Assembly (NCBI RefSeq): GCF_002160815.1
Contig: NZ_NFLH01000001.1
Span: 1 to 64,000 of the forward strand
Reading direction: 5' to 3'
DNA length: 64,000 nucleotides
Source of the DNA: Massilimicrobiota sp. An134
Lineage (GTDB): Bacteria; Bacillota_I; Bacilli_A; Erysipelotrichales; Coprobacillaceae
Part shown: one piece after another, positions 10,152 through 64,000 of the stretch
Numbering within the stretch: the stretch's first letter is position 1
Layout of the letters: each line of letters starts with the position of its first letter
Notes under the pieces: model-generated
The model's database searches: none
The model's input: the letters and a program-made list of their open reading frames with translations, nothing else
Told to the model about the DNA's origin: nothing
Translations under genes and position numbers: made by a program

Positions 10152-10168
10152 AAAGGAGAATTATATTT

Positions 10169-11106: not shown

Positions 11107-11124
11107 AAAGAGAGGTAATTTATT

Positions 11125-11256: not shown

Positions 11257-11274
11257 AAAAGGAGGACGTATATT

Positions 11275-11503: not shown

Positions 11504-11519
11504 AGAGGAGATGAAATTA

Positions 11520-11727: not shown

Positions 11728-12564
11728 ATGAAATTTGATGTTAAAGAATTAATTCAAGTAGGAACTAAAGTAATGAAAAAACATAGTCCAGAAATCTTAA
11801 CTGGTGTAGGTATTGTCGGAATGGCCACAACAGTCGTATTGACTATTAATGGTACAGTTAAAGCATTAGATTTATTGGAAGAAGAAAAGAGAGAAAGAAC
11901 TTCTAAATATTTCAATGAAGAAGATATTGATAAGGAATGGAAAAATACTCCTTTGACAAAAAGAGAAGTGTTTGCAATCTGTTGGAAACCTTATATTCCA
12001 GCGGTTATTACATTTTTAGGTGCTACAGGTTGTCTAATTGGGTCAAATTCAGTTAATTTGAAACGAACAGCAGCCTTTACAACTGCCTATAAAGTTATGG
12101 AAACATCTTATAAAGAATATAAGGATAAAGTTGAAGAATTAATTCCAGCAAAGAAAAAGAAAGAAATTAAAGATAGTATTGCCGAAGATCATGTAAGTAA
12201 ATATCAGCCAAATGCTACACAAGTGATTATCACGGATAAAGGTAATACACTATGTCAAGAGTCAGTATCAGGTCAATATTTTAGATCTGATGCAAATATT
12301 TTAAAAGCTGCCCAAAATGCAATTAATGAGAAACTTTTAGCTCACGATTATGTATCTTTGAATGAATTATATGTCGAATTAGGTATTGAGCCAACAACAG
12401 TAGGTAATGCAATTGGTTGGGAAATCAATAAAGTAAGAAATGAAGTCGGAAGTAATCTTATTCAAATCGACTGGAGTGCTCAAATGGCTAAAGATAACCA
12501 ACCATGCCTCTATATTCAATACAATATAGAGCCTACTTACGGGTTTGATCAATATGGGTATTGA
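11728..12564 (+). CDS. DUF6353-like phage membrane protein, paralogue A
   Basis: The 278-residue protein begins with an amphipathic helix and SPEILTGVGIVGMATTVVLT, a first membrane segment (about 27-45). A charged helix follows, then a second hydrophobic segment (about 88-108, PAVITFLGATGCLIGSN) and AAFTTAYKVMETSYKEYKDK. The C-terminal half is soluble and ends with a helix-turn region (SLNELYVELGIEPTTVGNAI). Two further genes in this window share this plan. The name DUF6353 is from memory of similar phage proteins, and the role is unknown. It follows directly on a terminator. Confidence 0.7.
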   Translation: MKFDVKELIQVGTKVMKKHSPEILTGVGIVGMATTVVLTINGTVKALDLLEEEKRERTSKYFNEEDIDKEWKNTPLTKREVFAICWKPYIPAVITFLGATGCLIGSNSVNLKRTAAFTTAYKVMETSYKEYKDKVEELIPAKKKKEIKDSIAEDHVSKYQPNATQVIITDKGNTLCQESVSGQYFRSDANILKAAQNAINEKLLAHDYVSLNELYVELGIEPTTVGNAIGWEINKVRNEVGSNLIQIDWSAQMAKDNQPCLYIQYNIEPTYGFDQYGY

Positions 12565-12578
12565 AGCTACTTTGATGG

Positions 12579-12605
12579 TACGCGTAAAATACATGAACTA
12601 TTATG
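12579..12605 (+). promoter_or_regulatory. 27-bp repeated element, copy 9
   Basis: The box reads TACGCGTAAAATACA, the consensus form, then 12 bases ending CTATTATG, then AAAG. The ribosome site AAAGGAGG is displaced downstream and the start codon is 25 bases away. Confidence 0.72.
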
Positions 12606-12630
12606 AAAGAAATTAAAGGAGGAATTTAAG

Positions 12631-13601: not shown

Positions 13602-13916
13602 ATGAGTTTAGTAATGTTAAACGATGATTTAAAAGAAGAAATTACAAGAGCTTCTATATTAAATGAAGCTGAGAAATGTGTATGTGGTCAAAGAGAGCAG
13701 GATTATGGAAGTCCTGAAGATAACTTTAAAACTATTGCTTCTCTTTGGACTTCATATAAAGGTGTTGAATTTACACCTGTAGATGTATCTATGATGATGG
13801 CTTTATTAAAGATTGCTAGAATCTCAACTGGTACAGCTACAAAAGATAGTTTTGTTGATTTGGCTGGTTATGCAGCATGTGGTGGAGAGATTAAATTTAA
13901 GGAGGAAAACAAATAA
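13602..13916 (+). CDS. DUF6378-type (MazG-like) phage protein
   Basis: The 104-residue protein contains AEKCVCGQREQDYGSPEDNF, then SMMMALLKIARISTG and DLAGYAACG, the pattern of small DUF6378-like proteins. These resemble all-alpha NTP pyrophosphohydrolase helices. A nucleotide-pool or regulatory role is plausible but not shown. It starts three bases after the preceding stop without a strong ribosome site, so translational coupling is likely, and its stop overlaps the next start. Confidence 0.65.
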   Translation: MSLVMLNDDLKEEITRASILNEAEKCVCGQREQDYGSPEDNFKTIASLWTSYKGVEFTPVDVSMMMALLKIARISTGTATKDSFVDLAGYAACGGEIKFKEENK

Positions 13917-14842
13917 TGATTGAAAAAGTATCAAGAAATTTTAATAAATTTGGTTTAAAAGTAAGAAAAGCAAGCCCTGAAATTTTAATTGTAGCTGGAG
14001 CTGTTGGTGTTGTAGCTTCAGCAGTTATGGCTTGTAAGGCAACACTTAAATTAGACGAGGTTTTAGAAGAACCAAAAGAAAAAATTGAAAAGATTCATGA
14101 ATGCTTAAATAATGAAGTATTTATGAGTTCAAGCACATATACTGAAGAAGATGGAAAGAAAGATTTATTAACAGTATATGTGCAAGGCGGAATACAAGTT
14201 GCTAAATTATATGCACCATCAGTTATTTTAGGAACTTTATCATTAGGAGCTATTTTAACTTCTCATCATATTTTAAGAAGTCGAAACATTGCTTTAGCTG
14301 CCGCATATGCAACTATTGAAAGAGGATTTAAAGACTATCGCGGACGTGTTGTTGAAAGATTCGGTAAACGTGTTGATTATGAATTGAAAAATAACATTAA
14401 AGCGATGGAAATTGAGAAAGTTGAAACAGATGAAGAAGGTAATGAAAAAGTTATTAAAGAATCTCAAGATGTCGTTCAAGCTCCATCAGAAAAATATTCA
14501 GAATATGCAAGATTCTTTGCTGTAGGGAATCCTAATTGGCAGAAAGATGCATCATTAAACTTATCTTTCTTAAGACAGCAGGAGAAATATATGAATGACC
14601 TTTTACGTTCTAGAGGTCACGTGTTTTTAAATGAGGTTTATGATTGTTTAGGTATTCCAAGAACAAAAGCTGGTCAAATCGTTGGATGGGTATATTCAAA
14701 AGATAATCCTGTAGGTGATAATTATATCGATTTCGGTATTTATGATGTTTATAAACCAGCAATTGCCGACTTTGTTAATGGATACGAAAGAAGTATCTTA
14801 CTTGATTTTAATCCAGATGGGAATATTTGGGAACTTATTTGA
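13916..14842 (+). CDS. DUF6353-like phage membrane protein, paralogue B
   Basis: The 308-residue protein repeats the plan of the 11728 gene: KVRKASPEILIVAGAVGVVAS as first membrane segment (about 20-38), a charged helix, a second hydrophobic segment (about 98-118), IALAAAYATIERGFKDYRGR, and a soluble C-terminal half with FLNEVYDCLGIPRTKAGQIV. The start overlaps the stop of the MazG-like gene (TAATG), with AAGGAGG upstream. Membrane topology with both termini inside is likely. The role is unknown. Confidence 0.72.
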   Translation: MIEKVSRNFNKFGLKVRKASPEILIVAGAVGVVASAVMACKATLKLDEVLEEPKEKIEKIHECLNNEVFMSSSTYTEEDGKKDLLTVYVQGGIQVAKLYAPSVILGTLSLGAILTSHHILRSRNIALAAAYATIERGFKDYRGRVVERFGKRVDYELKNNIKAMEIEKVETDEEGNEKVIKESQDVVQAPSEKYSEYARFFAVGNPNWQKDASLNLSFLRQQEKYMNDLLRSRGHVFLNEVYDCLGIPRTKAGQIVGWVYSKDNPVGDNYIDFGIYDVYKPAIADFVNGYERSILLDFNPDGNIWELI

Positions 14843-20883: not shown

Positions 20884-20906
20884 AAAAATAAGAGAGGATG
20901 AATATT

Positions 20907-21689
20907 ATGAGATATTCAAGAACAAATGCCTATATATTCTTAAAAAGAAATAGCAATATCATAATGACTGGAGTTAGCATTGTAGGATTTATAGTTACAT
21001 CAGTAAGCCTAGTGAAAGCAACATCAAAAGCAACATTAGCTATAGATCAGCTCCAAGATGAAAAAGATGAAATTGATATTTATGATAAAGCAAAGTTGGT
21101 TTGGAAATACTATAAATTCCCTATATTTACAGGAACTGTCACATTAGCAGTCATGTTATCTAATGGAGTTCTGAATCAGCAAAGACAAACTCAATTATTA
21201 AGTGCTTATGCTTTATTAGATCAAGGATATAAACAATATAGAGATAAATTGAAAGAGATATATGGTGAAGAATGCCACGAACGAATCATGAATGAAATTG
21301 CTATCGAACAAGCTGAAGATGTGTCGATTACAGCAGAATGTTTAACAAGCAATTGCGATTTAGGATCATATTCGATTTCACCTCAAATGTTATTTTATGA
21401 TTCTTTTTCTAAAAGATATTTCCAATCAACCATCGAACAAGTTATTCAAGCAGAGTATCATTTGAATAGAAATTTTGTACTTGGCGGATATGTGACTTTA
21501 AATCAATTCTATGAATTTTTAGGCATAGCTCAATTAAAAGAAACTGAAGAATTGGGTTGGGCCATTGAAGATGAATTTTATTGGATTGATTTCAATCATT
21601 CTAAGAAGGTTGTAAATGATGAAGAATGTATTGTTATTGATTATGTTCTTTATCCTAGTCTTGCATGGAGTACGTACGAATATATGTAA
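20907..21689 (+). CDS. DUF6353-like phage membrane protein, paralogue C
   Basis: The 260-residue protein is the third gene with this plan: RNSNIIMTGVSIVGFIVTSVSL as first membrane segment (about 13-33), a helix, a second hydrophobic segment (about 72-92, FPIFTGTVTLAVMLSNGVL), SAYALLDQGYKQYRDKLKEI, and a soluble C-terminal half with TLNQFYEFLGIAQLKETEEL. Its place behind the ssDNA-binding gene links the family to replication by position only. ATG at 20907 gives better spacing to AGAGG than the in-frame ATG at 20898. Confidence 0.7.
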   Translation: MRYSRTNAYIFLKRNSNIIMTGVSIVGFIVTSVSLVKATSKATLAIDQLQDEKDEIDIYDKAKLVWKYYKFPIFTGTVTLAVMLSNGVLNQQRQTQLLSAYALLDQGYKQYRDKLKEIYGEECHERIMNEIAIEQAEDVSITAECLTSNCDLGSYSISPQMLFYDSFSKRYFQSTIEQVIQAEYHLNRNFVLGGYVTLNQFYEFLGIAQLKETEELGWAIEDEFYWIDFNHSKKVVNDEECIVIDYVLYPSLAWSTYEYM

Positions 21690-24877: not shown

Positions 24878-24904
24878 TACGCGTAATTTACACATTATAT
24901 TATG
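24878..24904 (+). promoter_or_regulatory. 27-bp repeated element, copy 10, directly before the tRNA-like gene
   Basis: The box reads TACGCGTAATTTACA, then 12 bases ending TATATTATG. Here the element precedes no ribosome site but a tRNA-like sequence whose acceptor stem starts four bases later. This copy is the best argument that the element acts in transcription and not in translation. Confidence 0.72.
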
Positions 24905-24907
24905 GAG

Positions 24908-24981
24908 AGATAGATAGCTCAGTGGGGGGAGAGCACTACTAATTATTAGTAGGGACATCAGTTCAAATCTGATTCTGTTTC
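24908..24981 (+). tRNA. tRNA-like gene with UUA in the anticodon position (ochre-suppressor-like or degenerate)
   Basis: A full cloverleaf can be drawn. The acceptor is AGATAGA with TCTGTTT; the D stem is GCTC/GAGC with a 10-base loop containing a G-run. The anticodon stem is CTACT/AGTAG around the loop AATTATT. The variable region is GGAC, and the T stem ATCAG/CTGAT closes the canonical loop TTCAAAT. The triplet at 34-36 would be UUA, reading the stop codon UAA. Position 33 is A instead of the near-universal U and position 37 is U. The anticodon arm can close to a 7-bp stem with a three-base loop, and the acceptor pairing can extend beyond the discriminator. CCA is not encoded and a T-run follows. 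It may be a suppressor, a decoy or a decayed tRNA. Confidence 0.6.
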
Positions 24982-25006
24982 TCTTTTTATTTTTAGTTTT
25001 GTAGAC

Positions 25007-28168: not shown

Positions 28169-28555
28169 ATGAAATTGAAAGATTTATTTAACAAGAAACC
28201 TAAAAATGATAGAGAAATTGTTAAGGCTTTTTACAATGAGTACAGACGCATACCAAGAGTAGAAGAATTTAAAGCACTTGGAGGTCATATGCGAAGTGTT
28301 CAAAATACTTATGGCTCATATCAAAAATTTCTAAAGAGTCTTGGATTGCCATGTATTGTCACTAAAGCTGAGTCATTTGAGCTTATACATATTAGAAGAA
28401 ATAAAGTTGTCATGGTTGGTACTCGTAAAGACATAAGAGAATATTTAGGAGTAAGTAAAGATGTGGTGAATAGAGCTATACAAAAAAATAAACCAATTTT
28501 AGAAACTTATATCGCAGTCAAGAAACCTTTTAAAAAGGTAAGTACGCAAAAATAA
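28169..28555 (+). CDS. Phage DNA-binding-like protein with homing-endonuclease-associated repeat
   Basis: The 128-residue protein has IVKAFYNEYRRIPRVEEFKA then LGGHMRSVQNTYGSYQKFLK, a pattern seen in HNH-associated helix repeats. A C-terminal NUMOD1-like segment follows (VVMVGTRKDIREYLGVSKDV). No nuclease residues are present. DNA binding is likely and function unknown. Its last codons contain the start of the next repeated element. Confidence 0.6.
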   Translation: MKLKDLFNKKPKNDREIVKAFYNEYRRIPRVEEFKALGGHMRSVQNTYGSYQKFLKSLGLPCIVTKAESFELIHIRRNKVVMVGTRKDIREYLGVSKDVVNRAIQKNKPILETYIAVKKPFKKVSTQK

Positions 28556-28569
28556 CACGTTCCTTAATG
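28543..28569 (+). promoter_or_regulatory. 27-bp repeated element, copy 11
   Basis: The box reads TACGCAAAAATAACA, then 12 bases ending CTTAATG, then AAAGGAG. It overlaps the last codons and stop of the preceding gene. The start of the 28-codon gene is 15 bases away. Confidence 0.65.
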
Positions 28570-28584
28570 AAAGGAGTGGAATTT

Positions 28585-34955: not shown

Positions 34956-34982
34956 CACGCGTGAAAAACATGCCCTGTTATG
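34956..34982 (+). promoter_or_regulatory. 27-bp repeated element, copy 12, followed by a terminator
   Basis: The box reads CACGCGTGAAAAACA, then 12 bases ending TGTTATG. Uniquely, the element is embedded in an inverted repeat (GGGCA at 34953-34957 with TGCCC at 34971-34975) and is followed within ten bases by a terminator hairpin. Any transcript from it would be only about 30-40 nt, unless it reads through into the nuclease genes. Confidence 0.6.
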
Positions 34983-34988
34983 AAGAGA

Positions 34989-35020
34989 AAAGAGAATTTA
35001 CGTTCTCTTTCATTTTTTAT
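34989..35020 (+). terminator. Terminator hairpin directly behind copy 12
   Basis: AAAGAGAA (34989-34996) pairs with TTCTCTTT (35003-35010), then CATTTTTT. It separates the element from the nuclease gene and may act as an attenuator. Confidence 0.65.
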
Positions 35021-35040: not shown

Positions 35041-35337
35041 ATGGGTAAACTGGAACGAGACTTTCAACGTCAATTTAAAAAAGAACTTCAAAACAGATTT
35101 GAAGGATGTATTGTTACGAAGCTTGATTCGAGCTTGATTCAAGGAATTCCTGATCTTTTAGTTTTGTATAAAGATCGTTGGGCAGTTCTTGAAATGAAGA
35201 GAAGCGCTAATGCAACTCATAGACCAAATCAAGATTACTATGTTGGTCTTATGAATGATATGTCATTCTCACGATTTGTTTATCCTGAAAACAAGGATGA
35301 AGTTTTGGATGACTTGACTCGTTTCTTTCAGCCATAA
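35041..35337 (+). CDS. VRR-NUC-type nuclease
   Basis: The 98-residue protein shows the small PD-(D/E)XK VRR-NUC pattern: LERDFQRQFKKELQ, GIPDLLVLYKDRWAVLEMK with the catalytic Asp and Glu-x-Lys, and RPNQDYYVGLM. In phages such nucleases act in replication or recombination and are often encoded next to helicases. AAAGGAG lies 13 bases before the ATG. A four-codon overlapping reading (35034) uses the same ribosome site. Confidence 0.78.
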   Translation: MGKLERDFQRQFKKELQNRFEGCIVTKLDSSLIQGIPDLLVLYKDRWAVLEMKRSANATHRPNQDYYVGLMNDMSFSRFVYPENKDEVLDDLTRFFQP

Positions 35338-35357: not shown

Positions 35358-35921
35358 TTGAAATTTATATTTAACAATCATAATAACCTCAAAGGTTTAC
35401 ATGCTTATTTAGGAGCAAGTAAATATCACTGGCTAAATTATGATCCAGATAAGTTGGCTGCGACTTATCGAAATCATATGGCAAAAATGAGAGGAACAAG
35501 ACTACATGAATTAGCAGCAGAACTCATTACTTTAGGAGTTAAACTTCCTAGATCAAATAAAACTTTAAACATGTATGTGAATGACGCAATTGGATATCGA
35601 ATGACTCCAGAACAACTTTTATTTTATTCTGAAAACTGTTTTGGAACAGCCGATGCAATTTGTTTTAGAAACAATTTATTGCGTATTCACGATTTGAAAA
35701 CTGGTGTTGGGCCAACTCATATGGAGCAGCTATTAATTTATGCAGCTCTTTTTTGTTTGGAATACAATATCAAACCAGGTTCTATAGAATTCGAATTAAG
35801 AATTTATCAGAATGATGAAATCTTGGTTGCGAATCCAACAGCTGAAGATATTTTACCAATCATGGATAAAATTATTTCTTCAGATAACATTATTAAAAAA
35901 ATAAGACAAGAGGAGGAGTAG
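35358..35921 (+). CDS. PD-(D/E)XK (RecB/Cas4-like) nuclease
   Basis: The 187-residue protein contains RGTRLHELAAELI, CFGTADAICFRNNLLRIHDL and KTGVGPTHMEQLLIYAALFC, i.e. the helix His, GTxDA Asp, DLKTG and QLxxYA motifs of RecB-type exonucleases. It starts with TTG at 35358, nine bases behind AAGGAGG. It lies between the VRR-NUC gene and the RNA-polymerase-like gene, and probably processes phage DNA ends. Confidence 0.78.
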   Translation: MKFIFNNHNNLKGLHAYLGASKYHWLNYDPDKLAATYRNHMAKMRGTRLHELAAELITLGVKLPRSNKTLNMYVNDAIGYRMTPEQLLFYSENCFGTADAICFRNNLLRIHDLKTGVGPTHMEQLLIYAALFCLEYNIKPGSIEFELRIYQNDEILVANPTAEDILPIMDKIISSDNIIKKIRQEEE

Positions 35922-35924: not shown

Positions 35925-38690
35925 ATGGGGTATGTAGACAAGCCATCAATAGAACAAGTGGCTTTCGAATACTTTGGTGAAGTAAATGATGAGTTTTTAG
36001 AGCACTATGGTATTAAAAGACGTTCTGGACGATATCCTTGGGGTAGTGGCGAAGATCCATATCAACATAGTGGCGATTTTCTTTCTCGTGTTGAACAGTA
36101 TAAAAAGCAAGGCCTTAAAGATAACGAAATAGCTAAAGCTATGGGTATGACTTCTACTACTTATAGAGCTATGACTGGTATAGCAAATGATGAGAGACGA
36201 AGCTTATTAGTCGATAGAGCAAAGAGTTTAAGAGCTGATGGATTATCATTAAATGAAATAGCCAAAGAGATGGGCTATAAAAATGATTCATCAGTTAGAG
36301 CTTTATTAAATGTTGATTCTGAAATAAGAATGAATCAAGCTAAAAACGCAGCCGATCTTATTCGAAAGAGTATCGAAGAAAAAGGAATGATTGACGTCGG
36401 TAAAGGTGTTGATATTCAGTTAGGTATCTCTAAAGAGAAATTGGATCAGGCTTTGCTAATGCTTGAAATCGAAGGATATCCTGTTTATGGAGGTCGTGTT
36501 GAACAGGCAACGAATCCTGGTAAGAAAACAACTATCAAAGTTATTTGTCCAAAAGGAACGGAGCATAAAGATATATTTAGTTATGATATTCATAGTATTG
36601 ATGATTATGTATCCTATGATAAAGGTGAAACTTTTAAACCATCATTTGCTTATCCAAAAAGTATGGATTCCAAACGTTTGGCTATTCGTTATGCCGAAGA
36701 TGGAGGAATTAAGAAAGATGGAATTATTGAAATTCGTAGAGGAGTTCCTGATTTATCTTTAGGCGAATCGCATTATGCTCAGGTTCGTATATTAGTTGAT
36801 GGTAAAAAGTACATAAAAGGAATGGCCATATATTCTGACGATTTACCAGATGGTGTTGATGTTATGTTTAATACTAACAAAAGAAAAGATGTTCCTAAAC
36901 TTGAAGTATTAAAAGACATTAAAACCGACGATCCAATGAATCCATTCGGTTCAACAATTAAAGAACATGGTGGACAACATTATTATAAGGATAAGAATGG
37001 TAAGGAACAGTTATCACTTATCAACAAGACTAGAGAAGAAGGAGATTGGCTCAAATGGAGCAATACTTTATCTTCTCAGTTTTTATCTAAGCAGCCACTA
37101 AAATTAGCTAAGAAACAATTAGATTTAGCTAAAGAAGATAAACAAATGCAGTTTGAAGATATTATGGCTTTGAATAATCCAACTGTAAAGAGAAAACTTC
37201 TTCTAGATTTTGCTGATGAATGTGACTCGGCAGCCGTTAAATTAAGAGGAGCGGCTTTACCTAGACAAAAGTATCATGTCATTATTCCTGTTACAACATT
37301 AAAAGATAATGAAGTATATGCACCAAACTATAAGAATGGCGAAAAAGTTTGTTTAGTTCGTTATCCTCATGGTGGAACATTTGAAATACCAGAGCTTGTT
37401 GTAAATAACAAACATAAAGATGCTAGAAAAATCTTAGGTACCACAACAACTGATGCTATAGGAATTAATAGCCATGTTGCAGAAAGACTTTCTGGAGCTG
37501 ATTTCGATGGCGATACTGTTATGGTTATACCACAAGGTAAAGGAGTTAAGATAAAAACAACTCCACCTTTGAAAGGTCTTGAAGGATTCGATCCAAAGCT
37601 TCAGTATGGAACAAAAAAAGTCGGAAACGATTACTACAATGAACGTGGTGAGAAGATTAAAACCATGTCTAAGAAATTAACCCAAACTGAAATGGGTAAA
37701 GTATCTAATTTAATCACTGACATGACATTAAAGAATGCTACTGAAGATGAGTTGGCAAGAGCTGTTCGCCATTCAATGGTAGTCATAGATGCTGAAAAAC
37801 ATAAGTTGGACTATAGATCTAGTGCTAAAGACAATGCTATAGAAGAATTAAAGAAGAAGTATCAAGAAGGTGGCGCTTCTACTATTATCTCTAGAGCTAA
37901 AGGTACGACTTCCGTAGATAAACGTCAAGGTTCTCCAACTATAGACCCTGAGACAGGAAAACTTAAATGGAAAACTGCTGATGATTTATACTATGAGACT
38001 ACTAAAGTTAATAAGAGAACCGGGGAGGTCACTACAACTACAAAGAAAAGACAGCAAAAGATTACAAATATGGATTATGTAGAAGATGCCTATGACCTAG
38101 TATCAAAAGCGAATACTCCAATGGAAAGATATTATGCTGAATATGCTAATTCAATGAAGAGACTAGCTAATGAGGCTCGTAAAGCCAGTCTAAATGTAGG
38201 AAAAGTTCAACGTTCTTCTTCTGCTGCAAAGACTTATGCTGCTGAAGTGAAATCTTTAGATGAAAAGCTAATGAAGGCGGAGGCTAATAAACCTAGGGAG
38301 AGGATGGCACAAATTCAGACCACTCTTGAAGTGAATGCTAAGATTCAGGCTAATCCAGATATGGATAAGAGTGCTATCAAAAAAGCTAAACAACAGGCTC
38401 TTAGCAGACATAGAGAGGCCCTTGGAGCTAGGAGAGAGCCAGTAGAAGTAAGTGAAAGAGAATGGGAAGCTATTCAGGCTGGTGCTATAAGTGACAATAA
38501 ATTAACTAGAATTCTTAAGAATGCTGACATGGATGTGATTAGACAGTATGCAACACCTAAAACGTATACAACAATCACCCCAGCTAAGGCTAATAAGATT
38601 AAAGCCCTTAAAGCAAGTGGCTACACAACTGCTGAAATAGCAGAACGTTTAGGAGTTTCTACTTCAACAGTACAAAAGTATATGAATTGA
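35925..38690 (+). CDS. RNA-polymerase-like protein with DFDGD signature and HTH segments
   Basis: The 921-residue protein contains SGADFDGDTVMVIP (D526, D528, D530), the metal-binding signature of two-barrel RNA polymerases as found in beta' and in single-chain phage enzymes such as YonO. It is preceded by a barrel-like stretch (KVCLVRYPHGGTFEIPELVV). A possible first barrel lies at about 270-345. N-terminal HTH repeats (GLKDNEIAKAMGMTSTTYRA, GLSLNEIAKEMGYKNDSSVR) and a C-terminal one (ASGYTTAEIAERLGVSTSTV) suggest DNA binding. The N-terminus has EHYGIKRRSGRYPWGSG, like a tag on two later phage proteins. Polymerase activity is inferred from the motif. Confidence 0.72.
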   Translation: MGYVDKPSIEQVAFEYFGEVNDEFLEHYGIKRRSGRYPWGSGEDPYQHSGDFLSRVEQYKKQGLKDNEIAKAMGMTSTTYRAMTGIANDERRSLLVDRAKSLRADGLSLNEIAKEMGYKNDSSVRALLNVDSEIRMNQAKNAADLIRKSIEEKGMIDVGKGVDIQLGISKEKLDQALLMLEIEGYPVYGGRVEQATNPGKKTTIKVICPKGTEHKDIFSYDIHSIDDYVSYDKGETFKPSFAYPKSMDSKRLAIRYAEDGGIKKDGIIEIRRGVPDLSLGESHYAQVRILVDGKKYIKGMAIYSDDLPDGVDVMFNTNKRKDVPKLEVLKDIKTDDPMNPFGSTIKEHGGQHYYKDKNGKEQLSLINKTREEGDWLKWSNTLSSQFLSKQPLKLAKKQLDLAKEDKQMQFEDIMALNNPTVKRKLLLDFADECDSAAVKLRGAALPRQKYHVIIPVTTLKDNEVYAPNYKNGEKVCLVRYPHGGTFEIPELVVNNKHKDARKILGTTTTDAIGINSHVAERLSGADFDGDTVMVIPQGKGVKIKTTPPLKGLEGFDPKLQYGTKKVGNDYYNERGEKIKTMSKKLTQTEMGKVSNLITDMTLKNATEDELARAVRHSMVVIDAEKHKLDYRSSAKDNAIEELKKKYQEGGASTIISRAKGTTSVDKRQGSPTIDPETGKLKWKTADDLYYETTKVNKRTGEVTTTTKKRQQKITNMDYVEDAYDLVSKANTPMERYYAEYANSMKRLANEARKASLNVGKVQRSSSAAKTYAAEVKSLDEKLMKAEANKPRERMAQIQTTLEVNAKIQANPDMDKSAIKKAKQQALSRHREALGARREPVEVSEREWEAIQAGAISDNKLTRILKNADMDVIRQYATPKTYTTITPAKANKIKALKASGYTTAEIAERLGVSTSTVQKYMN

Positions 38691-38706: not shown

Positions 38707-38946
38707 ATGTCTAGAACAGTAATGTTAACAACTATTGACAATCCGTTTGATCCTTACACAGACTTTGACAATTGGTTAGCTTATGATACTGAAAAACACT
38801 ACAATACTTGTGGTCTTTTGGCTAGAATTGCTAACACTTCTGATGCATTGTCTGATGAAGAAAACGTGATTGAAATTGAATCAGCAATTGACGACTTTCT
38901 TAGTCTTGACTTAACAAATACATTTAAGAAACTTGTTTATGATTAA
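38707..38946 (+). CDS. Small phage protein preceding the packaging genes
   Basis: The 79-residue acidic protein (TTIDNPFDPYTDFDNWLAYD, TCGLLARIANTSDALSDEEN) is a type I know from the same position, just before the terminase genes, in many Bacillota phages; its role is unknown. The ATG lies 11 bases after AAGGAG. An overlapping ATG at 38703 gives only three codons. Confidence 0.68.
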   Translation: MSRTVMLTTIDNPFDPYTDFDNWLAYDTEKHYNTCGLLARIANTSDALSDEENVIEIESAIDDFLSLDLTNTFKKLVYD

Positions 38947-39040
38947 TGTTTTGTTTATCAACTAAAAAGTCTTTAAATGTTTTTAATAAAAGTTTATTAA
39001 TGTTTATGTTTTATCATTATCATTCATTAATAAAAATTAA

Positions 39041-39118
39041 TTTATTATTTAAGAGTTTGATTGAATAAATAAAATTATTTTATTATTTAAGAGTTTGATT
39101 GAATAAATAAAATTATTT
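39041..39118. repeat. Tandem repeat, two copies, 38-bp period
   Basis: TTTATTATTTAAGAGTTTGA and the following bases to 39080 recur exactly at 39079-39118. The repeat is non-coding and AT-rich. Confidence 0.9.
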
Positions 39119-39318
39119 CTTTTGTCATATGTAAACAACTTTATTGATAAATTTTACCTACATTTATCTCTATTATAAACATGGAAATTTATTTATCAGT
39201 CATACCCTTGAATATATAGAAAGGCGTGGGGAGGGGTCTCAAACAAGTGCACCCCCTCTCTCATCGCGCGCCTCTTCGATTTTTCTCCGGAGGATATTTT
39301 TGGAGAAACAATTCTATA

Positions 39319-39339
39319 TTTTTACGACACTTTAAGCGG
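39319..39339 (-). repeat. Left copy of a perfect 21-bp inverted repeat
   Basis: Read on the minus strand this is CCGCTTAAAGTGTCG followed by TAAAAA, identical to 39668-39688 on the plus strand. TATAGAAT follows it directly on the minus strand, so it could be a leftward promoter or operator. Confidence 0.85.
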
Positions 39340-39667
39340 CCTACGAGACCTTTTCTGACATTAAAATTGATATTTAGACATTTTTGGTATTGTTCATGGT
39401 ATATCCCCACAGATTTTGTTCTCAATTCCTCTCATAAGATTCAATCTAATGGACATTTATTAATGTTTGCCGTTTCTTTTGCTACTTAAAATCATTGTTT
39501 TTTATATTCTATTTTCTAACTTGTTTTATTTTTTAGATGTAACATTAATTTTGAAAGTTATCTCTGCATTACTCCTTTCATGCAAAGATAAAATATTTAC
39601 AGCTTGTATGTGATCATCCTATTTATTGATAAAAGTTATTTCCACACATAATTTAAGGTTTCGCAGT

Positions 39668-39688
39668 CCGCTTAAAGTGTCGTAAAAA
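39668..39688 (+). repeat. Right copy of a perfect 21-bp inverted repeat
   Basis: CCGCTTAAAGTGTCG followed by TAAAAA precedes GGTATTAATAC and the ribosome site of the small terminase gene. The core CGCTTAAA resembles CGCRTAAA of the 27-bp early element, but the spacing to the -10-like part differs. It is a candidate late promoter or operator. Confidence 0.85.
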
Positions 39689-39728
39689 GGTATTAATACT
39701 ACCTTAAAAGTATAGAGAAAGGAGTAGC

Positions 39729-40906: not shown

Positions 40907-40920
40907 GGGTGAAAATCAAA

Positions 40921-41370
40921 ATGGAGAATTCACTATACCATCATGGTGTCAAAGGTATGAAGTGGGGCGTTCGTAGAACCCCAGCTCAGTTAGGACATAA
41001 AACAACTTCTAGTAAAAAGAAGAAAACTGGTTTGTTTAGTAAATCGAAACAAGAAACTAAAAAGAAAACTGTAGTCAAATCAACTGAACATACTGAACAA
41101 AAACCTAAAAAGAAATCTGTTAAAGAAATGACTGATCAGGAGTTAAACGCTTCTATCAATCGAATGAGATTAGAACAACAGTATGCTCAATTAACACCTA
41201 AGAAAGCATCTTTAGGTAAACGCTTTGTCAATAGCGCTATCAATGATGTATTAGTTCCAGGTATAAGAGAAGGAGCTAAAAACATGGTTGCTGATCAAAC
41301 TAGAAAAAGGGGAAATGATTTCGTCAACGATATGTTTGAAGCTATGACTAATCAGAAAAAGAAAAAGTAA
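40921..41370 (+). CDS. Basic phage protein with N-terminal GMKWG motif
   Basis: The 149-residue protein begins MENSLYHHGVKGMKWGVRR, a motif widely seen at the ends of phage head-module proteins. A long Lys-rich disordered stretch follows, then a helical C-terminal part (MTDQELNASINRMRLEQQYA). The motif recurs in the 43145 gene and in a related form in the RNA-polymerase-like protein. A virion-targeting role is possible but unproven. ATG at 40921 is preferred to an overlapping GTG at 40909 in the ribosome site. Confidence 0.68.
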   Translation: MENSLYHHGVKGMKWGVRRTPAQLGHKTTSSKKKKTGLFSKSKQETKKKTVVKSTEHTEQKPKKKSVKEMTDQELNASINRMRLEQQYAQLTPKKASLGKRFVNSAINDVLVPGIREGAKNMVADQTRKRGNDFVNDMFEAMTNQKKKK

Positions 41371-43144: not shown

Positions 43145-43543
43145 ATGGATGAACAAGAGTTATACCATTATGGTGTCCTCGGAATGAAGTGGGGAGTTAG
43201 AAGAAATCCCTCAAAAGCTTATGGAAAAGCTGAAAAGAAGCGACAAAAGCTTCAATCAAAAGCAGCTTCTATGCATAGAAAAGCTGATACAAAAGCTTAT
43301 ATAGCTTCCGGTAAGATATCACGTTCTAAAACAAAGAAGCAACTTAAAAAGAATAGCAAAAAATTAAATCAAGCTTTACAGCTTAATTTCAAGTCAGAAC
43401 GACTTCAAAGAAAAGCGATAAAGTGGGAAAAGCAAATGGATAAAGTCTTTAAAGATTACGAAATAAATCGTATCGAACAGAAGACTATTTTAAAAGGTAA
43501 GAAATTTACTTATGAACTTACAAGAAAGAAGAGTCAAAGATAA
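43145..43543 (+). CDS. Basic phage protein with N-terminal GMKWG motif, second copy
   Basis: The 132-residue, very basic protein starts MDEQELYHYGVLGMKWGVRR, almost the same as the 40921 protein, followed by lysine-rich helices (KKRQKLQSKAASMHRKADTK). It lies between large terminase and portal. The shared tag and the placement suggest an internal head protein or packaged DNA-binding protein, which is inference. Confidence 0.68.
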   Translation: MDEQELYHYGVLGMKWGVRRNPSKAYGKAEKKRQKLQSKAASMHRKADTKAYIASGKISRSKTKKQLKKNSKKLNQALQLNFKSERLQRKAIKWEKQMDKVFKDYEINRIEQKTILKGKKFTYELTRKKSQR

Positions 43544-50689: not shown

Positions 50690-51067
50690 ATGATTACTTT
50701 TAAATCAAGAGGGAATTGGGATATCACAACTCGTTTCTTAGAAAGAGCTAAAAAAGGAATCAATATCAGATCTCTTGATAAATACGGTAGGCAAGGGGTT
50801 GCTGCTTTACGTTCGGCAACTCCTGTTGATACCGGATTGACTTCTCAATCTTGGTATTACCAAGTTACTCAAAAGAAAGGACTTGTTGAAATCGTCTTTC
50901 TTAATTCAAATGTTCAAAATGGAATTCCAATTGCTATTATTCTGCAATATGGTCATGGAACAAGAAATGGAGGATATGTTCAAGGACGTGATTATATCAA
51001 TCCTGCAATCCAACCTATCTTTGACAAAATTGTAGAAGATGCTTGGAGGGAGGTGACTAGAGGATGA
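50690..51067 (+). CDS. HK97 gp10-like tail component/connector
   Basis: The 125-residue protein (GRQGVAALRSATPVDTGLTS, SWYYQVTQKKG, IPIAIILQYGHGTRNGGYVQ, RDYINPAI) matches the HK97 gp10-like family. Such genes normally follow the head-closure gene; here it stands behind the endolysin and directly before the tape measure, whose start it overlaps. GAGG lies before the ATG. Confidence 0.72.
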   Translation: MITFKSRGNWDITTRFLERAKKGINIRSLDKYGRQGVAALRSATPVDTGLTSQSWYYQVTQKKGLVEIVFLNSNVQNGIPIAIILQYGHGTRNGGYVQGRDYINPAIQPIFDKIVEDAWREVTRG

Positions 51068-54000
51068 GTAAAACAATTGATGAAAGAGTCGTCTCCATGC
51101 AGTTTGACAATCGAAATTTTGAGAATAATGTCAAAACTACAATCGGAACTCTAGATCGTTTAAAAGAAAAATTAAAATTTCCAGGAGCTAATAAAGCTCT
51201 TGATAACATTTCTAAGTCTGCTAGTAAAGTTAATATGAATGGTCTTAACAGTGCTGTTGATACTGTACAAGCTCGATTTTCAGCATTAGATGTTATTGGC
51301 GTGACTGCTTTAGCAAACATCGCTAACCAAGCAGTTAATACTGGTAAACGCATGATCAGTGCATTAACACTCGACCCTATCATGTCTGGTTTTCAAGAGT
51401 ATGAAACACAGATTAATGCTGTTCAGACTATTTTAGCAAACACCCAACATAAAGGTAGTACGCTTGAAGATGTCAATAAGGCATTGGATGAATTGAACAA
51501 GTATGCCGATCAAACAATTTACAACTTTACTGAAATGACAAGAAATATTGGTACATTTACCGCAGCCGGTGTTGATCTGGATATGGCAGTAAGTTCAATT
51601 AAAGGTATTGCAAACTTAGCGGCTGTATCGGGTTCAAACGCACAACAAGCATCGACAGCCATGTATCAGCTTTCTCAAGCGATTGCTGCTGGTAAAGTAC
51701 AATTAATGGACTGGAACTCAGTAGTCAACGCTGGTATGGGTGGTGAGTTATTCCAGAATGCCTTAAAGAGAACGGCAGAACACTTTGGTTATAATGTTGA
51801 CGGAATGATCAAAAAGTATGGTTCATTTAGAGAATCATTGACTAGAGGTGGATGGTTGACAACAGAAGTCTTAACCGAAACCTTAACGCAATTATCAGGC
51901 GCTTATACTGAAGCCGATTTGATTGCTCAAGGATATTCAGAGAAACAAGCAAAAGAAATTGCTGAGTTGGCTCAAACAGCCGTTGATTCAGCTACAAAGG
52001 TTAAAACATTTACACAGTTATTTGATACTTTGAAAGAAGCTGCTCAATCAGGATGGACTCAAACATGGGAATATATTATTGGTGACTTTGAACAGGCTAG
52101 AGAATTACTTACAGGTATTTCTGAAACTGTTGGAGGCTGGATTAATGCTATGTCTGATGCCCGTAATGCTATTATTGGAGGAGCTTTTGATTCTGCTTGG
52201 TCTCAATTGGAAGAGAAGATTAATGCGGCTGGAGTATCAACTGAAAAATTCCAGAAAGAACTTGCAAATGTTGCAAAATCTCATGGAAAATCATTAGATC
52301 AAATGATCGAGAAAGAAGGTTCTTTATCGGCTGTTATAGAAAAGGGTCTTATTTCTAAAGAATTAGTTGTGGAAACTCTTAAAAATATAGCTGGAATAAA
52401 TAAAGAAACTTCCAAATCTACAGAAGATATGACTGCCAAACTTAAGAAATTCCAAAAGGTGGTCAATGACGTTTGGCGTGGGGATTATAAGAATGTAGAT
52501 ACTGGACGTATAGAGGCTCTTAAGAAAGCTGGATATGATTACGCTGAAGTACAAAAGTTAGTTAATAAAACTGTCGATGGACATAAATTAACACTTGAAG
52601 ATTTATCAGATGCTCAATTAAAAGCTGTTGGTTATACTAATGAAGAAGTTGAAGCTATTCGAAAATTAGCTGAAGAAGCTGAGAAAGCTGGGACTCCTTT
52701 AAACAGTTTAATTGAACGATTAAATAAACCATCGGGTAGAGAGTTATTCTGGGATTCGTTAGCAAACATGGCTCAACCTATTATCACTATATTTAAGGCA
52801 ATAGGTGCTGCTTGGAACGACGCATTTCCATCAGATGGTGGAGCTGGTCTTTATAGTTTTCTAGAAACATTCCATGCTTTTACAGAACATCTAGTTATTG
52901 GTGATAGAGAAGCTGAGAACTTAACAAGAACATTGAAAGGTTTATTTGCAATCCTTGATATGGTAAGTTGGGTTGCTGGTGGATCATTTAAAATTGCCTT
53001 TACTATAGCTTCTAAAGTAGCTAGTACATTATGGCAAGCTTTAGGTTTAGGTAATGCAACGATTCTTGAAATTACTGCAACGATTGGCGATGCTATTGTT
53101 GCTGTTCGAGATTGGATAGAGGAACATAGTTTATTAGGTAATGCTATTGAATTTGTTGTTCCTTTAATTGTAAATTTAGGTAAAGCTATTGCGGCACTTA
53201 TTGATTATGCATTAGGTTTACCAGATGTACAAAAAGGATTTGAAGATTTTCTTAATATCTTCAAAACTATAGGTGATTATATCTATAGTAACTTTGGTGA
53301 ATCTATAGATGCTGTCATCGAGTTCTTTGATACTTTAACAAGCATTAATGATTTCGAACCGAAAGATTTGCTTAAAGGAATAGAGAAACTTGGAGTAGCC
53401 ATTCAAGAGAATTTTGCTAATGTTGATCTTTCTACAATTGGACAAAACGTCATTGATGGTCTTGTTAATGGTCTTCAAACAGGGGCCAATGCGGTATGGA
53501 CTGCTATTACGACTGTTGCTGAAACATTGGTAAATGCTGCTAAGAATTATTTAGGAATTCATTCACCATCTACGGTCTTTATGGAGATCGGACAGTACAT
53601 TATGGAAGGACTTAGCATGGGACTTCAAAATGGATTGTCCTTATTAAGTCAAGGAGCTAAAGGTATTGTTGATATTATCATGGATATTTTTAGTGGAATT
53701 AACTTCGGAGACGTATTTGTCTTAGGTTCTTTAGGAAGCGCTGTATTCTTCTTAAATAAGATTACAAATATTTTAGATAAGTTTGCTTCTCCATTTGAAG
53801 GATTTTCAAAAGTTTTAGACGGACTTGGAGATGTTCTAGGTAGTGTTTCTAAGAATATTGATCAAAGAACTAAGAATCTTAAATCAGAATATTTACTCAA
53901 CTTAGCAAAGGCTATTGGTATACTGGCACTTTCATTGGTCGCATTAGCAACTGTTGATATTGGTAAGCTATGGAATGCTGTAGCTGTTGTTACAGTTCTT

Positions 54001-57000
54001 GGTGCTGGATTAATGGCTTTAATGAAGGTCAGTGAGAAAGTAAGCGGTCCTGCTGGTAAATTTGAATTTGCTAAGCTTGGAACTCTCATGTTAGCTATGT
54101 CAGCTTCAATGTTAATCATGTCATTTGCTTTAAAGAAATTAGCAGGTGTTGATTTTGCTTCAGGAATGGGGGCAGTATTAGAATTATCGCTTCTTATGGC
54201 GGCCATGGCTGGAGTCATGATTGCTTTTGGGGTATTTGTGAAAGCAGATGCCGCTGGAAGTATCGATAAAGCAGGAAAGATGTTCCTAAAATTATCTGTA
54301 AGTTTAGGAATCTTAGCATTAGTTATTAAATTAATTGGAACTATGTCAGTTGGAGATATTGTCAAAGGTATAGCGGTATTAGGTGCTTGTGGATTGTTAT
54401 TTGCAGCTATGTCTGTATTATCGTTAGTATCTTTCAACGCGGATAAAGCTGGTAAGATGTTTACTAAAATGGCCGTTGCTATTGGTATATTAGCATTAGT
54501 CATGAAACTTATTGGAACTCTATCTGCTGGTGATATTTCTAAAGGATTAGCTGTCATTACAGCTTGTAGCATTCTATTTGAAAGACTTATAGCAGTGTCA
54601 TTACTTGCTGGAGAAAATGCAGATAAAGCCGGAAAGATGTTACTTAAGATGTCCATAGCTATTGGTATATTAGCTTTGACTATTAAACTTATAGCTACAA
54701 TAGATACGAATGATGTAATTAAAGGTGGAGCTGTCATCGCAGCTTCAGCAGTATTATTCAAATCTTTGGTAGAAGTATCAAAATCAGCTGGAGATAATGC
54801 TTCAAAGGCCGGATCAATGATTCTTAAAATGTCTGCTGCTATCGGCATCCTCGCTTTAACTATTAGACTTATTGCGGGACTATCAGGTGGGGATATTGTT
54901 AAAGGTATTGCTGTTATTGCTTCTTGTGAATTGTTATTTGCTGCTATCGTTAAAGTATCGCAATATGCTGGTAAGAATGCTTCCGCTGCTGGTAATATGC
55001 TTATGAAAATGTCAGTAGGTATTGGCGTTTTAGCAGTTGCAATCAAAGTCTTAGCAGGTGTTTCTGTAGGTGATATTGTTAAAGGAACTCTTGCTATATC
55101 TTCGTTGATGGGTGTTATGACACTCATGATTAGAATATCTAAATCAGCTGGAGCAAATGCTGATAAAGCAGGAACTATGCTAATGAAAATGACTGTTCCG
55201 TTAATCGCTATTGCTGGTATTATCACGCTATTAAGTTTCTTGGATACTAAGAAAGTTATAGTTGCTACAGGTGCTTTAAGTGCCGTTATGGGTATGTTTA
55301 CACTCATGACAAAAGTTCTTGGATCACTAAATGGAGTTAAAGGAACAACAGGACCATTAATTCTCATGACTGTTGTTGTCGGTATGCTGGGTGGAATCTT
55401 AGCTGTATTGCAAGGATTACCTGTTGAATCAACACTAGCAAATGCTGCGGCACTATCAACTTTACTGTTGGCTCTATCCGTTTCAATGACGCTTATTAGT
55501 AAAATTGGAGCAGTATCACCAATGGCTATAGTTGCTATGGGTGCTCTAACATTGATTGTTGGATTAATTGGTGGCGTTTTATATTTACTTCAAGATATGA
55601 ATGTAGATGCCGCTATTCCATTAGCTACATCATTATCAACTTTATTGTTAGCTATGACTGGAGCGTTAGCAGTATTGACAGTAATCGGTTTAATGGGTCC
55701 ATCATCATTTATTGGCATTGGATCACTGTTAACTCTAATTACATCCTTAGGTGTTGTTATGGGTGCTATTGGAGCATTAACAACATATTTTCCTCAACTT
55801 GAAGAATTCTTAAATAAAGGCATTGGAATTCTCCAAGCTATCGGCGAAGGTTTAGGTTCATTCGTAGGTGGTATTGTTAATGGAGTTTTAACAGCTGCTA
55901 CAGAAGGACTTCCTGATGTTGGTACTAAACTTTCAGGTTTTATGGAAAACTTAAAACCGTTTATTGAAGGTGCTAATACGATAGATCCTAAGATGGCTGA
56001 AGGAACAAAAGCTTTAGCTCAAGCTATTCTTTATATTACTGGAGCAAATTTATTAGACAAGATTACCGAATTCTTAACAGGTAGTGATTCATTAGCCGAA
56101 TTTGGTGAAAAATTAGTTCCATTTGGTAGAGCTATGGTTGAATATTCTAATGTTGTAGCCGGAATTGATACAGAAGTTGTTGAAAAATCAGCTGCTGCGG
56201 GTCAGGCTTTAACAAAATTGGCCGAAAGTGTTCCTAATACTGGTGGACTCGTATCATTCTTTACAGGTGATAATACTCTAGATGTATGGGGGCCTCAATT
56301 AGTAGTATTTGGCGAATCACTTGCTAAGTATTCAGAAAAAGTGGCTGGAGTCAATGCCGAAGCAATTACTGCATCAGCGACTGCCGCCGATGGACTAGTA
56401 CAATTAGCTCAAAAGCTTCCTAATACAGGAGGACTCATGGCTTTTATTATGGGCGATAACGATATGGGTGAATTTGGTACTAACTTAGTTCAATTTGGTA
56501 CAGGATTAATGTTATATTCTATGATGGCTTCAACTATTAACCCTGATGCTATTAATAATTCCGTAAAAGCTGCTGACGCATTAGTTTCTCTTTCTAAAAA
56601 GATTGACGAAGCTAGTAGTGGTGGATTTTGGGATTGGCTATTCGGCGGAGGGGACGACATTTCAGACTTTGGACTTAAACTTATTCCATTTGGTGAAGGT
56701 CTGAAAAAATATTCTGAAAAAGTGGCTGGAATTAGTGTTGAAAATGTTAACAACTCTGTGACTGTTGCAAATGCTTTATCTAAAATGGTTAGAAATATGG
56801 ATGGTATTAATACAGAAGCTGCCTTCAGTTTCAAAGCTGCTATTGATGCTCTAGCTAAGACAAATGTTCAAGGTTTCTTAGAAGCATTCGGACAAAGTTC
56901 AAAGAAATTTATAGATTCGGGTATTGGTGCAATCAATGGATTTATTAAAGGTCTAAAATCAGGTCAAAAAGATGTTAATTCTACAATGTCAACTATTGCT

Positions 57001-57798
57001 AAAGGTGCTGTTGATGCTCTGACTAAGAACAAGAGTAATTTCAATAGCGCTGGCGAGAAACTTATTAAAGAACTTAATAAGGGAATGGATTCTAGCAAGA
57101 GAGATTCAATGAAAGCTGCTGAGAAAATAGCCAAGGATGCTGCTGAAGGAGCCAAAGCTGCGTATGATAACTTTAAAACTGCTGGTAAGTATGTGGTTCA
57201 AGGTTTCGCTGCTGGTATTAGTGCAAATACATATTTAGCTTCTGCTATGGCTAGAGCTATGGCTAGAGCCGCTGATGAGGCTGCTAGAAAACAATTAGAT
57301 GAACGTTCACCATCAAAAGTATTTTACAGTATAGGTGATTACGCAGGTCAAGGTTTCGTTAATGCGTTATCTGATTATGTAGATATTTCTTACCGCTCAG
57401 GTAGAGATATGGCTAGTAGTGCTTCTGATGGATTAAATGCTGCTATTGCAACTATCGGTAAAGCATTTGATATTGATACTGATATTCAACCAACTATCAG
57501 TCCAGTTTTAGATTTATCTAATGTAAGATCCGGAGTTAGATCTATCAATGGTTTATTTGGGTCTGAACAGACTATTAGTGCTGTTGGTCGTATCAGAGCA
57601 CTGAGTGGATCTATTAACCTAAATCAAAATGGAGATAATAATGATATAGTGCATGCTATTAAAGATCTTAAGAAATCAATTAGAAATTCAGTAGGAGACA
57701 CATATATAGTTGACGGTATTACTTATGATGACAGAAGTAATGTTGCAGATGCGGTTAAGACTATAATTAAAGTAGCTAATATAGAAAGGAGGAAATAA
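51064..57798 (+). CDS. Tail tape measure protein
   Basis: The 2244-residue protein is the largest in the window. It starts with a coiled-coil region and the tape measure domain (FQEYETQINAVQTILANTQH, GVDLDMAVSSIKGIANLAAV). At about 900-1550 it has long alternating hydrophobic segments, including about six related units of roughly 55 residues (KAGKMLLKMSIAIGILALTI and variants). It closes with soluble helical repeats and a conserved end (LDERSPSKVFYSIGDYAG). By the usual 0.15 nm per residue rule the tail would be near 330 nm. It overlaps the preceding gene by four bases. Confidence 0.9.
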   Translation: MSKTIDERVVSMQFDNRNFENNVKTTIGTLDRLKEKLKFPGANKALDNISKSASKVNMNGLNSAVDTVQARFSALDVIGVTALANIANQAVNTGKRMISALTLDPIMSGFQEYETQINAVQTILANTQHKGSTLEDVNKALDELNKYADQTIYNFTEMTRNIGTFTAAGVDLDMAVSSIKGIANLAAVSGSNAQQASTAMYQLSQAIAAGKVQLMDWNSVVNAGMGGELFQNALKRTAEHFGYNVDGMIKKYGSFRESLTRGGWLTTEVLTETLTQLSGAYTEADLIAQGYSEKQAKEIAELAQTAVDSATKVKTFTQLFDTLKEAAQSGWTQTWEYIIGDFEQARELLTGISETVGGWINAMSDARNAIIGGAFDSAWSQLEEKINAAGVSTEKFQKELANVAKSHGKSLDQMIEKEGSLSAVIEKGLISKELVVETLKNIAGINKETSKSTEDMTAKLKKFQKVVNDVWRGDYKNVDTGRIEALKKAGYDYAEVQKLVNKTVDGHKLTLEDLSDAQLKAVGYTNEEVEAIRKLAEEAEKAGTPLNSLIERLNKPSGRELFWDSLANMAQPIITIFKAIGAAWNDAFPSDGGAGLYSFLETFHAFTEHLVIGDREAENLTRTLKGLFAILDMVSWVAGGSFKIAFTIASKVASTLWQALGLGNATILEITATIGDAIVAVRDWIEEHSLLGNAIEFVVPLIVNLGKAIAALIDYALGLPDVQKGFEDFLNIFKTIGDYIYSNFGESIDAVIEFFDTLTSINDFEPKDLLKGIEKLGVAIQENFANVDLSTIGQNVIDGLVNGLQTGANAVWTAITTVAETLVNAAKNYLGIHSPSTVFMEIGQYIMEGLSMGLQNGLSLLSQGAKGIVDIIMDIFSGINFGDVFVLGSLGSAVFFLNKITNILDKFASPFEGFSKVLDGLGDVLGSVSKNIDQRTKNLKSEYLLNLAKAIGILALSLVALATVDIGKLWNAVAVVTVLGAGLMALMKVSEKVSGPAGKFEFAKLGTLMLAMSASMLIMSFALKKLAGVDFASGMGAVLELSLLMAAMAGVMIAFGVFVKADAAGSIDKAGKMFLKLSVSLGILALVIKLIGTMSVGDIVKGIAVLGACGLLFAAMSVLSLVSFNADKAGKMFTKMAVAIGILALVMKLIGTLSAGDISKGLAVITACSILFERLIAVSLLAGENADKAGKMLLKMSIAIGILALTIKLIATIDTNDVIKGGAVIAASAVLFKSLVEVSKSAGDNASKAGSMILKMSAAIGILALTIRLIAGLSGGDIVKGIAVIASCELLFAAIVKVSQYAGKNASAAGNMLMKMSVGIGVLAVAIKVLAGVSVGDIVKGTLAISSLMGVMTLMIRISKSAGANADKAGTMLMKMTVPLIAIAGIITLLSFLDTKKVIVATGALSAVMGMFTLMTKVLGSLNGVKGTTGPLILMTVVVGMLGGILAVLQGLPVESTLANAAALSTLLLALSVSMTLISKIGAVSPMAIVAMGALTLIVGLIGGVLYLLQDMNVDAAIPLATSLSTLLLAMTGALAVLTVIGLMGPSSFIGIGSLLTLITSLGVVMGAIGALTTYFPQLEEFLNKGIGILQAIGEGLGSFVGGIVNGVLTAATEGLPDVGTKLSGFMENLKPFIEGANTIDPKMAEGTKALAQAILYITGANLLDKITEFLTGSDSLAEFGEKLVPFGRAMVEYSNVVAGIDTEVVEKSAAAGQALTKLAESVPNTGGLVSFFTGDNTLDVWGPQLVVFGESLAKYSEKVAGVNAEAITASATAADGLVQLAQKLPNTGGLMAFIMGDNDMGEFGTNLVQFGTGLMLYSMMASTINPDAINNSVKAADALVSLSKKIDEASSGGFWDWLFGGGDDISDFGLKLIPFGEGLKKYSEKVAGISVENVNNSVTVANALSKMVRNMDGINTEAAFSFKAAIDALAKTNVQGFLEAFGQSSKKFIDSGIGAINGFIKGLKSGQKDVNSTMSTIAKGAVDALTKNKSNFNSAGEKLIKELNKGMDSSKRDSMKAAEKIAKDAAEGAKAAYDNFKTAGKYVVQGFAAGISANTYLASAMARAMARAADEAARKQLDERSPSKVFYSIGDYAGQGFVNALSDYVDISYRSGRDMASSASDGLNAAIATIGKAFDIDTDIQPTISPVLDLSNVRSGVRSINGLFGSEQTISAVGRIRALSGSINLNQNGDNNDIVHAIKDLKKSIRNSVGDTYIVDGITYDDRSNVADAVKTIIKVANIERRK

Positions 57799-61419: not shown

Positions 61420-64000
<2,581 letters not shown>

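Follow-up and report, generated by a model that had tools for sequence, protein, structure and literature searches.

The stretch of DNA analysed here, a window of 64,000 nucleotides from Massilimicrobiota sp. An134 (contig NZ_NFLH01000001.1, positions 1 to 64,000), carries a prophage encoding a protein of 921 amino acids (aa) with the DFDGD signature of two-barrel RNA polymerases. We consider it highly probable that this protein is a DNA-dependent RNA polymerase with two barrels in a single chain, and that it initiates at a compact phage promoter about 25 bp long. The polymerase is a real member of a known family, PHROG 4291, with a predicted function; the newly deduced part is the promoter system. 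Our computations yielded the fold of the protein, its invariant active-site residues, a repeated DNA element, the tie of this element to polymerase-bearing phages and a predicted transcription start site.

The polymerase gene (35925–38690, + strand, ATG start) is matched by the PHROG 4291 profile over its full length, residues 20–920 (E=0, 1233 bits). The signature SGADFDGDTVMVIP occupies residues 523–536, the aspartates of DFDGD being residues 526, 528 and 530, and the SGADFDGD block is invariant across 35 diverse relatives. When 50,697 phage records were searched by tblastn with the polymerase, 251 matched, and in 249 the match covers at least 80% of the protein. Judged by the full-length profile match, the 251 records and the invariant block, the open reading frame (ORF) and its signature are far beyond chance. 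The records with PHROG 4291 are from phages of Gram-positive hosts, among them Arthrobacter, Gordonia, Streptomyces, Lactococcus, Microbacterium, Rhodococcus and Faecalibacterium, and the public labels of the homologues are mostly 'helix-turn-helix protein' or 'RNA-dependent RNA polymerase'. In bacterial genomes, a scan gave 138 loci, the best 80 of which lie mostly in Clostridia; the host's family was represented by 42 further genomes, none of which had a copy. Helix-turn-helix (HTH) segments are located at both ends of the chain. The N-terminal, HTH-like segments span residues 52–130 (36078–36314, +), with a PHROG HTH match at residues 52–85 and helices in the model, and the C-terminal one spans residues 885–921 (38577–38687, +), with matches to Pfam HTH_23 (1.6e-9, residues 890–919) and Sigma70_r4_2 (1.1e-7). 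The original prediction, made from the letters alone, had described a single chain of 921 aa with the DFDGD signature and HTH segments at both ends, without other polymerase subunits and placed between the early and late blocks, and our analysis agrees with this description. One chain holds both barrels, unlike in the multi-subunit architecture; no further subunit was seen among the annotated proteins of the window, which do not cover every ORF; and the gene separates the replication block from the late block.

As a sequence search against solved structures returned no polymerase, a fold search was needed. The AlphaFold model, built on 35 relatives, has a mean pLDDT of 80, with residues 1–45 disordered (pLDDT<50). 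Over model residues 243–758, the fold search gave QDE-1 (Z 14.7) and RDR2 (Z 14.6), while the scores for the phage RNA polymerases (RNAPs) P74-26 gp62 and P23-45 gp64 were Z 11.7 and Z 11.5, respectively. The catalytic double-psi barrel, DPBB-A, comprises residues 443–539 (37251–37541, +) and carries DFDGD at 37500–37514; its residues 443–537 match the isolated DPBB domain 7dg9 with a Z of 10.7 over 81 residues. The second barrel, DPBB-B, comprises residues 243–335 (36651–36929, +) and contains K298 (36816–36818) and K319 (36879–36881), which by their position are the likely counterparts of the two catalytic lysines in the second barrel. D526, D528, D530, K298 and K319 are invariant in 35/35 relatives. 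The fold and these invariant residues support the assignment of the protein as a two-barrel RNA polymerase.

The DNA element is a 29-bp motif, CGCGAAAAWWACA-N4-CTWTWATGA, with 12 copies in the window, all on the + strand; it lies upstream of early genes, of a tRNA and of the operon to which the polymerase belongs. It was derived from the early-region repeats, which were aligned without gaps into 29 bp, and was then used in a weight-matrix scan of the 64 kb. The 12 sites scored 28.9–37.3 bits, the next best candidate scored 10.5, and the late block has no element. The sites lie at 8461–8489 (34.1 bits, its G 19 nt before the start codon), 9012–9040 (33.9 bits), 9232–9260 (37.3 bits), 9572–9600 (29.5 bits), 10127–10155 (29.9 bits), 11082–11110 (35.7 bits), 11232–11260 (33.4 bits), 11479–11507 (28.9 bits) and 12581–12609 (36.1 bits); directly before a tRNA gene at 24880–24908 (30.8 bits; tRNA 24907–24983, Rfam tRNA 24908–24981); before a short ORF at 28545–28573 (32.6 bits); and upstream of the nuclease–exonuclease–polymerase operon at 34958–34986 (33.3 bits, proposed +1 at 34982). 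A stricter motif scan with GAAAGGAG gave 0 hits, the pattern being too narrow. The consensus of 587 sites reads CGC (G/A) AAAAWW ACA N4 CTWTWAT G A, in which C, G, C, C(−13), A(−12), T(−4), T(−1) and G(+1) are at least 97% conserved; because the 587 were picked by a matrix, these frequencies are biased towards the seed sites. The '27-bp element' named in the original prediction is therefore real and better described as an ungapped motif of 29 bp, while the '21-bp repeats' named beside it were not identified with certainty. Two near-identical AT-rich direct repeats of ~38 nt, at 39040–39120 ahead of the late block, may be what was meant. In the accessible literature on Arthrobacter, Gordonia, Microbacterium and Rhodococcus phages (open-licence papers only), we found no earlier description of the element.

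The element is found in nearly all relatives, which infect Firmicutes and Actinobacteria. Sites, all on the + strand, number 14 in Oengus (Faecalibacterium), 7 in Mudcat (Arthrobacter), 16 in ReqiPepy6 (Rhodococcus), 11 in Secretariat (Gordonia) and 13 in Count (Microbacterium), against 0–1 hits in the reversed sequence used as a control. The Lactococcus phages P078 and 1706, whose polymerases are the most diverged (37–38% identity), have their own variants of the element, which keep ACA-N4-CTATA (8 and 11 copies, respectively, none on the − strand); divergence of the polymerase is thus accompanied by divergence of the element. Among the 162 polymerase genes with at least 1.5 kb of upstream sequence, 157 have the element within 2.6 kb upstream, at a median of 945 bp before the N-terminal His codon, a position ahead of the VRR-Nuc/exonuclease/polymerase operon. 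The converse also holds: in scans that started from the motif, 47 of the 54 viral contigs >40 kb lying outside the first set encode PHROG 4291, a family present in about 0.5% of the phage records (251/50,697), which corresponds to an odds ratio of about 1350. The remaining seven contigs also lack the adjacent exonuclease. Two of them, G050 (14 sites) and G072 (29 sites), were analysed from end to end; they contain the lineage's DNA polymerase but gave neither exonuclease nor late-gene matches and therefore look truncated. All seven look like fragments. Among the genes common to 8/8 phages, we recognised none for a sigma factor or any other transcription factor. Together, the polymerase and the phage-specific, promoter-like element tied to it strongly support a dedicated transcription system, as the original prediction had suggested.

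The predicted transcription start (+1) is the G ending TATG, or a nucleotide next to it, a placement on which tRNA 5′ ends, hairpins and Shine-Dalgarno positions agree. Thirteen tRNA genes lie downstream of an element; 12 of them begin 1–8 nt after the G, and 11 within 5 nt. In 105 of 157 polymerase-operon elements, hairpin pairing starts exactly at the G, and in 139 it starts within 5 nt; the mean minimum free energy over 50 nt is −13.6 for these hairpins and −6.3 for shuffles. The hairpins were folded sequence by sequence, the automatic alignment being too gappy for a covariation count. The window's own copy, a promoter-proximal hairpin followed by a T-run, starts at the proposed +1 (34982–35018, +). 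The early genes of the window have their start codons 17–30 nt after the G, with the Shine-Dalgarno sequence directly behind it in most cases. Many of the element-adjacent tRNAs, found at 24907–24983 of the window and in the relative contigs L050:5092, L056:2935, L168, L185, L212, L232 and L245, have odd anticodon loops (2- or 4-base anticodons according to ARAGORN) or a stop anticodon (tta in the window); they could be decoys or suppressors, and not ordinary tRNAs.

This start site also bears on an alternative in which TATAAT serves as a −10 box for host RNA polymerase carrying sigma-A, assisted by a phage activator on the CGC...ACA boxes (like T4 MotA), while the phage polymerase does something else. 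TATAAT/TATTAT fits the −10 consensus, and the −35 box is absent, as in activator-dependent promoters. Sigma-A starts transcription about 7 nt after the −10 hexamer, that is, about 6 nt after the G of TATG. The G itself is too close to serve as the start from such a box, and a sigma-A start would consequently cut into 11 of the 13 tRNAs, as well as into the 5′ arm of the hairpin and the Shine-Dalgarno sequence of most early genes of the window. Moreover, a conserved activator was not recognised in the shared gene set, the element is kept across hosts of two phyla, and the region of the elements has no excess of sigma-70-like sites (33 found against 33.6 expected). We regard this alternative as unlikely.

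We favour a mechanism in which the polymerase itself, and not another factor, reads the element on a template that is presumably DNA. The promoter would consist of CGC at −24 to −22, ACA at −14 to −12, CTWTWAT at −7 to −1, and the +1 G followed by purines. The polymerase would bind the upstream CGC and ACA boxes, which are spaced by one helical turn and for which the HTH segments at its two ends are candidate readers, then melt CTWTWAT and initiate at the G. Each early gene would then be a small transcription unit of its own driven by the polymerase, and terminator-like hairpins are enriched between the early genes (7 found against 1.5 expected). The polymerase would also drive a tRNA and its own operon, creating positive feedback that the promoter-proximal hairpin perhaps damps. 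The late genes may be served by host polymerase or be reached by read-through from the polymerase operon, a possibility suggested by the linear relatives, in which the polymerase gene adjoins the genome end that joins the late genes.

The same arrangement lends some support to another explanation, in which the protein is a late-gene polymerase like YonO, which is reported to transcribe the late genes of SPbeta (PMC5467207), and either another factor reads the early elements or read-through from the element of its own operon crosses the genome end into the late genes. The location of most elements at early genes and of none inside the window's late block, together with the strong tie between element and polymerase, makes this explanation improbable; read-through into the late genes as such is compatible with a polymerase that starts at the element. 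A true RNA-dependent RNA polymerase (RdRP), as publicly annotated, is very improbable. The closest solved folds are eukaryotic cellular RdRPs, but the Pfam RdRP match is weak (18.2 bits, under the curated cut-off of 23.8), the terminal HTH segments and the tied DNA element indicate DNA, and the annotated proteins showed no RNA-silencing partner. DNA is copied by QDE-1 as well (PMC2950127), which again speaks against this annotation. Finally, the stoperators of cluster A mycobacteriophages suggest one more reading, in which a lysogeny repressor would bind the element as its operator, and we give this next to no chance. The element is repeated, oriented and intergenic, and the prophage is temperate with an integrase, but the sequence of the motif lacks symmetry, the tRNA and hairpin positions indicate that it sets the 5′ end of the RNA, and it occurs in phages described as lytic that lack a repressor or integrase, such as Count (PMC7302621).

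Several points weigh against a polymerase that starts at the element. Of the two double-psi barrels on which the original prediction depends, DPBB-A is well matched, while DPBB-B, modelled alone (pLDDT 84), gave weak matches with Z up to 4.5. These matches are mostly to DPBB folds, including designed DPBB proteins, with RDR2 on top, and the whole-model alignment to QDE-1 and RDR2 takes in the DPBB-B region. We found neither biochemistry nor a transcriptome for the PHROG 4291 family in the accessible literature. The tRNA of ReqiPepy6 begins 8 nt after the G and is compatible with either start, and the TATAATG of the actinophage elements also resembles a sigma-A −10 box. The relatives share about a dozen non-structural core genes, by which the tie between element and polymerase is confounded with common descent, and the motif-first contigs are related and not phylogenetically independent. 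Some of the shared early genes have no assigned function and could include an unrecognised factor.

A polymerase that drives its own operon raises the question of its first copies, which must come from elsewhere. They could be supplied by polymerase packaged in the virion via an N-terminal tag and injected. The tag, LEHYGIKRRSGRYPWGSG, is a disordered, conserved segment at residues 25–42 (35997–36050, +; pLDDT<50 for residues 1–45), with H27, G29, S34, G35, R36, G40 and G42 invariant among 35 relatives. Its start, LxHYGV, resembles the LxHHGVKGMKWGVRR of proteins (DUF7211) whose genes lie around those for the terminase and head in the same phages. Taken as a PHROG domain of its own, the tag gave only a weak link to PHROG 11022 (E 0.34). 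In the window, two proteins near the terminase and portal genes, at 40909–41370 and 43145–43543, carry a HHGVKGMKWGVRR-type motif (DUF7211). The homologue orf75 of phage 1706 is deposited as a 'structural protein', as are the early-region orf62 and orf71, and the presence of the same label on these two led us to assume that the labels come from mass spectrometry. The depositor's label on orf75 and the resemblance of a short motif are what the proposal of virion delivery rests on, and this counts against it; we give it about an even chance, separately from our confidence in the polymerase and its promoter. The fuller proposal, that a virion-carried QDE-1-like polymerase with a head-targeting N-terminal tag shared with capsid-region proteins serves a promoter code of 25 bp, T7-like and conserved among hundreds of phages of Firmicutes and Actinobacteria, is more tentative and falls slightly short of even. 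If true, a virion-carried polymerase would make early transcription in these phages independent of the host.

The neighbours of the polymerase are conserved in 8/8 phages. Its operon encodes a VRR-Nuc-like endonuclease (35041–35337, +; PHROG 93) and a Cas4-like exonuclease (35358–35921, +; PHROG 3953, 2.5e-82), and directly 3′ of the polymerase lies a gene for a 79-aa protein (38707–38946, +; PHROG 4303, 6.2e-29), a possible partner, subunit or regulator of the polymerase. The following ~780 bp (38947–39728) hold no convincing gene and contain 59-nt inverted arms at 39294–39352 and 39655–39713. This is probably the cos or packaging region, as its flanking genes correspond to the final and the initial gene in the linear genomes of actinophages. 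The prophage is temperate, with an integrase at 6620–7636 (−), and its viral contig begins at window position 6620, as deduced from the contig coordinates; a reverse transcriptase (RVT_1) at 735–1829 (−) lies in the flank outside it. Three paralogous proteins of PHROG 2152 (11728–12564, 13916–14842 and 20898–21689, the first two also matching Pfam DUF6353) have relatives in most or all of the compared phages. Further downstream, tandem 180-nt repeats (54259–55195) lie inside a gene at 51064–57798 that matches the tape measure proteins of relatives, and a collagen-like region of 9-nt repeats (62769–62903) is probably part of a tail fibre.

The promoters of single-chain two-barrel polymerases are hardly known. 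Here, a promoter, a start nucleotide and an attenuator-like hairpin could be deduced from sequence for a family with members in ~250 phage records and in many gut prophages, turning a poorly labelled gene family into a transcription system that can be tested directly in one tube. It may also provide a minimal T7-like expression tool for Gram-positive bacteria, and it seems to be a case of convergence, a second polymerase fold having arrived at the promoter plan of T7.

The closest known systems are the named PHROG 4291 homologues, ReqiPepy6 gp106, Mudcat gp94, the Oengus 'putative RNA polymerase' and orf75 of Lactococcus phage 1706, which are 37–51% identical over the full length and have the same neighbour genes and the same element or a variant upstream; the window differs from them in that its copy resides in an integrated prophage of a low-GC host. 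The original prediction had placed the protein in the YonO branch, an assignment that the sequence does not support. Alignment of the PHROG 4291 profile with YonO by hhalign gave a probability of 0.2, YonO matches PHROG 8308 and not PHROG 4291, and the nearest solved folds are QDE-1, RDR2 and the P23-45 and P74-26 RNAPs. The likeness consists of a phage-encoded single chain of ~100 kDa with a DxDGD motif and, for YonO, a transcription start reported upstream of an unannotated non-coding RNA. Beyond the motif, which is DNDGD in YonO, no sequence similarity is detectable, and YonO serves late genes, whereas the window element stands at early genes and the polymerase operon. The authors of the YonO study left its promoter sequence undetermined (PMC5467207); a 40-kb SPbeta stretch containing yonO and part of the late region has no convincing site for the 29-bp element, as expected if YonO belongs to a different family. 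P23-45 gp64 (non-virion) and gp96 (virion) share the single-chain phage two-barrel fold and phage-specific promoter motifs, and co-occurrence of polymerase and motif likewise served as evidence there (PMC10770324). They differ in belonging to a Thermus phage, in other promoter sequences, in a solved gp64 chain of only about 593 residues and in a virion RNAP fused to the tape measure protein. Over residues 243–758, the closest solved fold is that of QDE-1 and plant RDR2, but these are eukaryotic RNA-silencing enzymes without a phage promoter. T7 and SP6 RNA polymerases, whose fold is unrelated to the two-barrel fold, resemble the window system in their compact promoter, which ends at a +1 G followed by purines, with initiation beside an AT-rich box.
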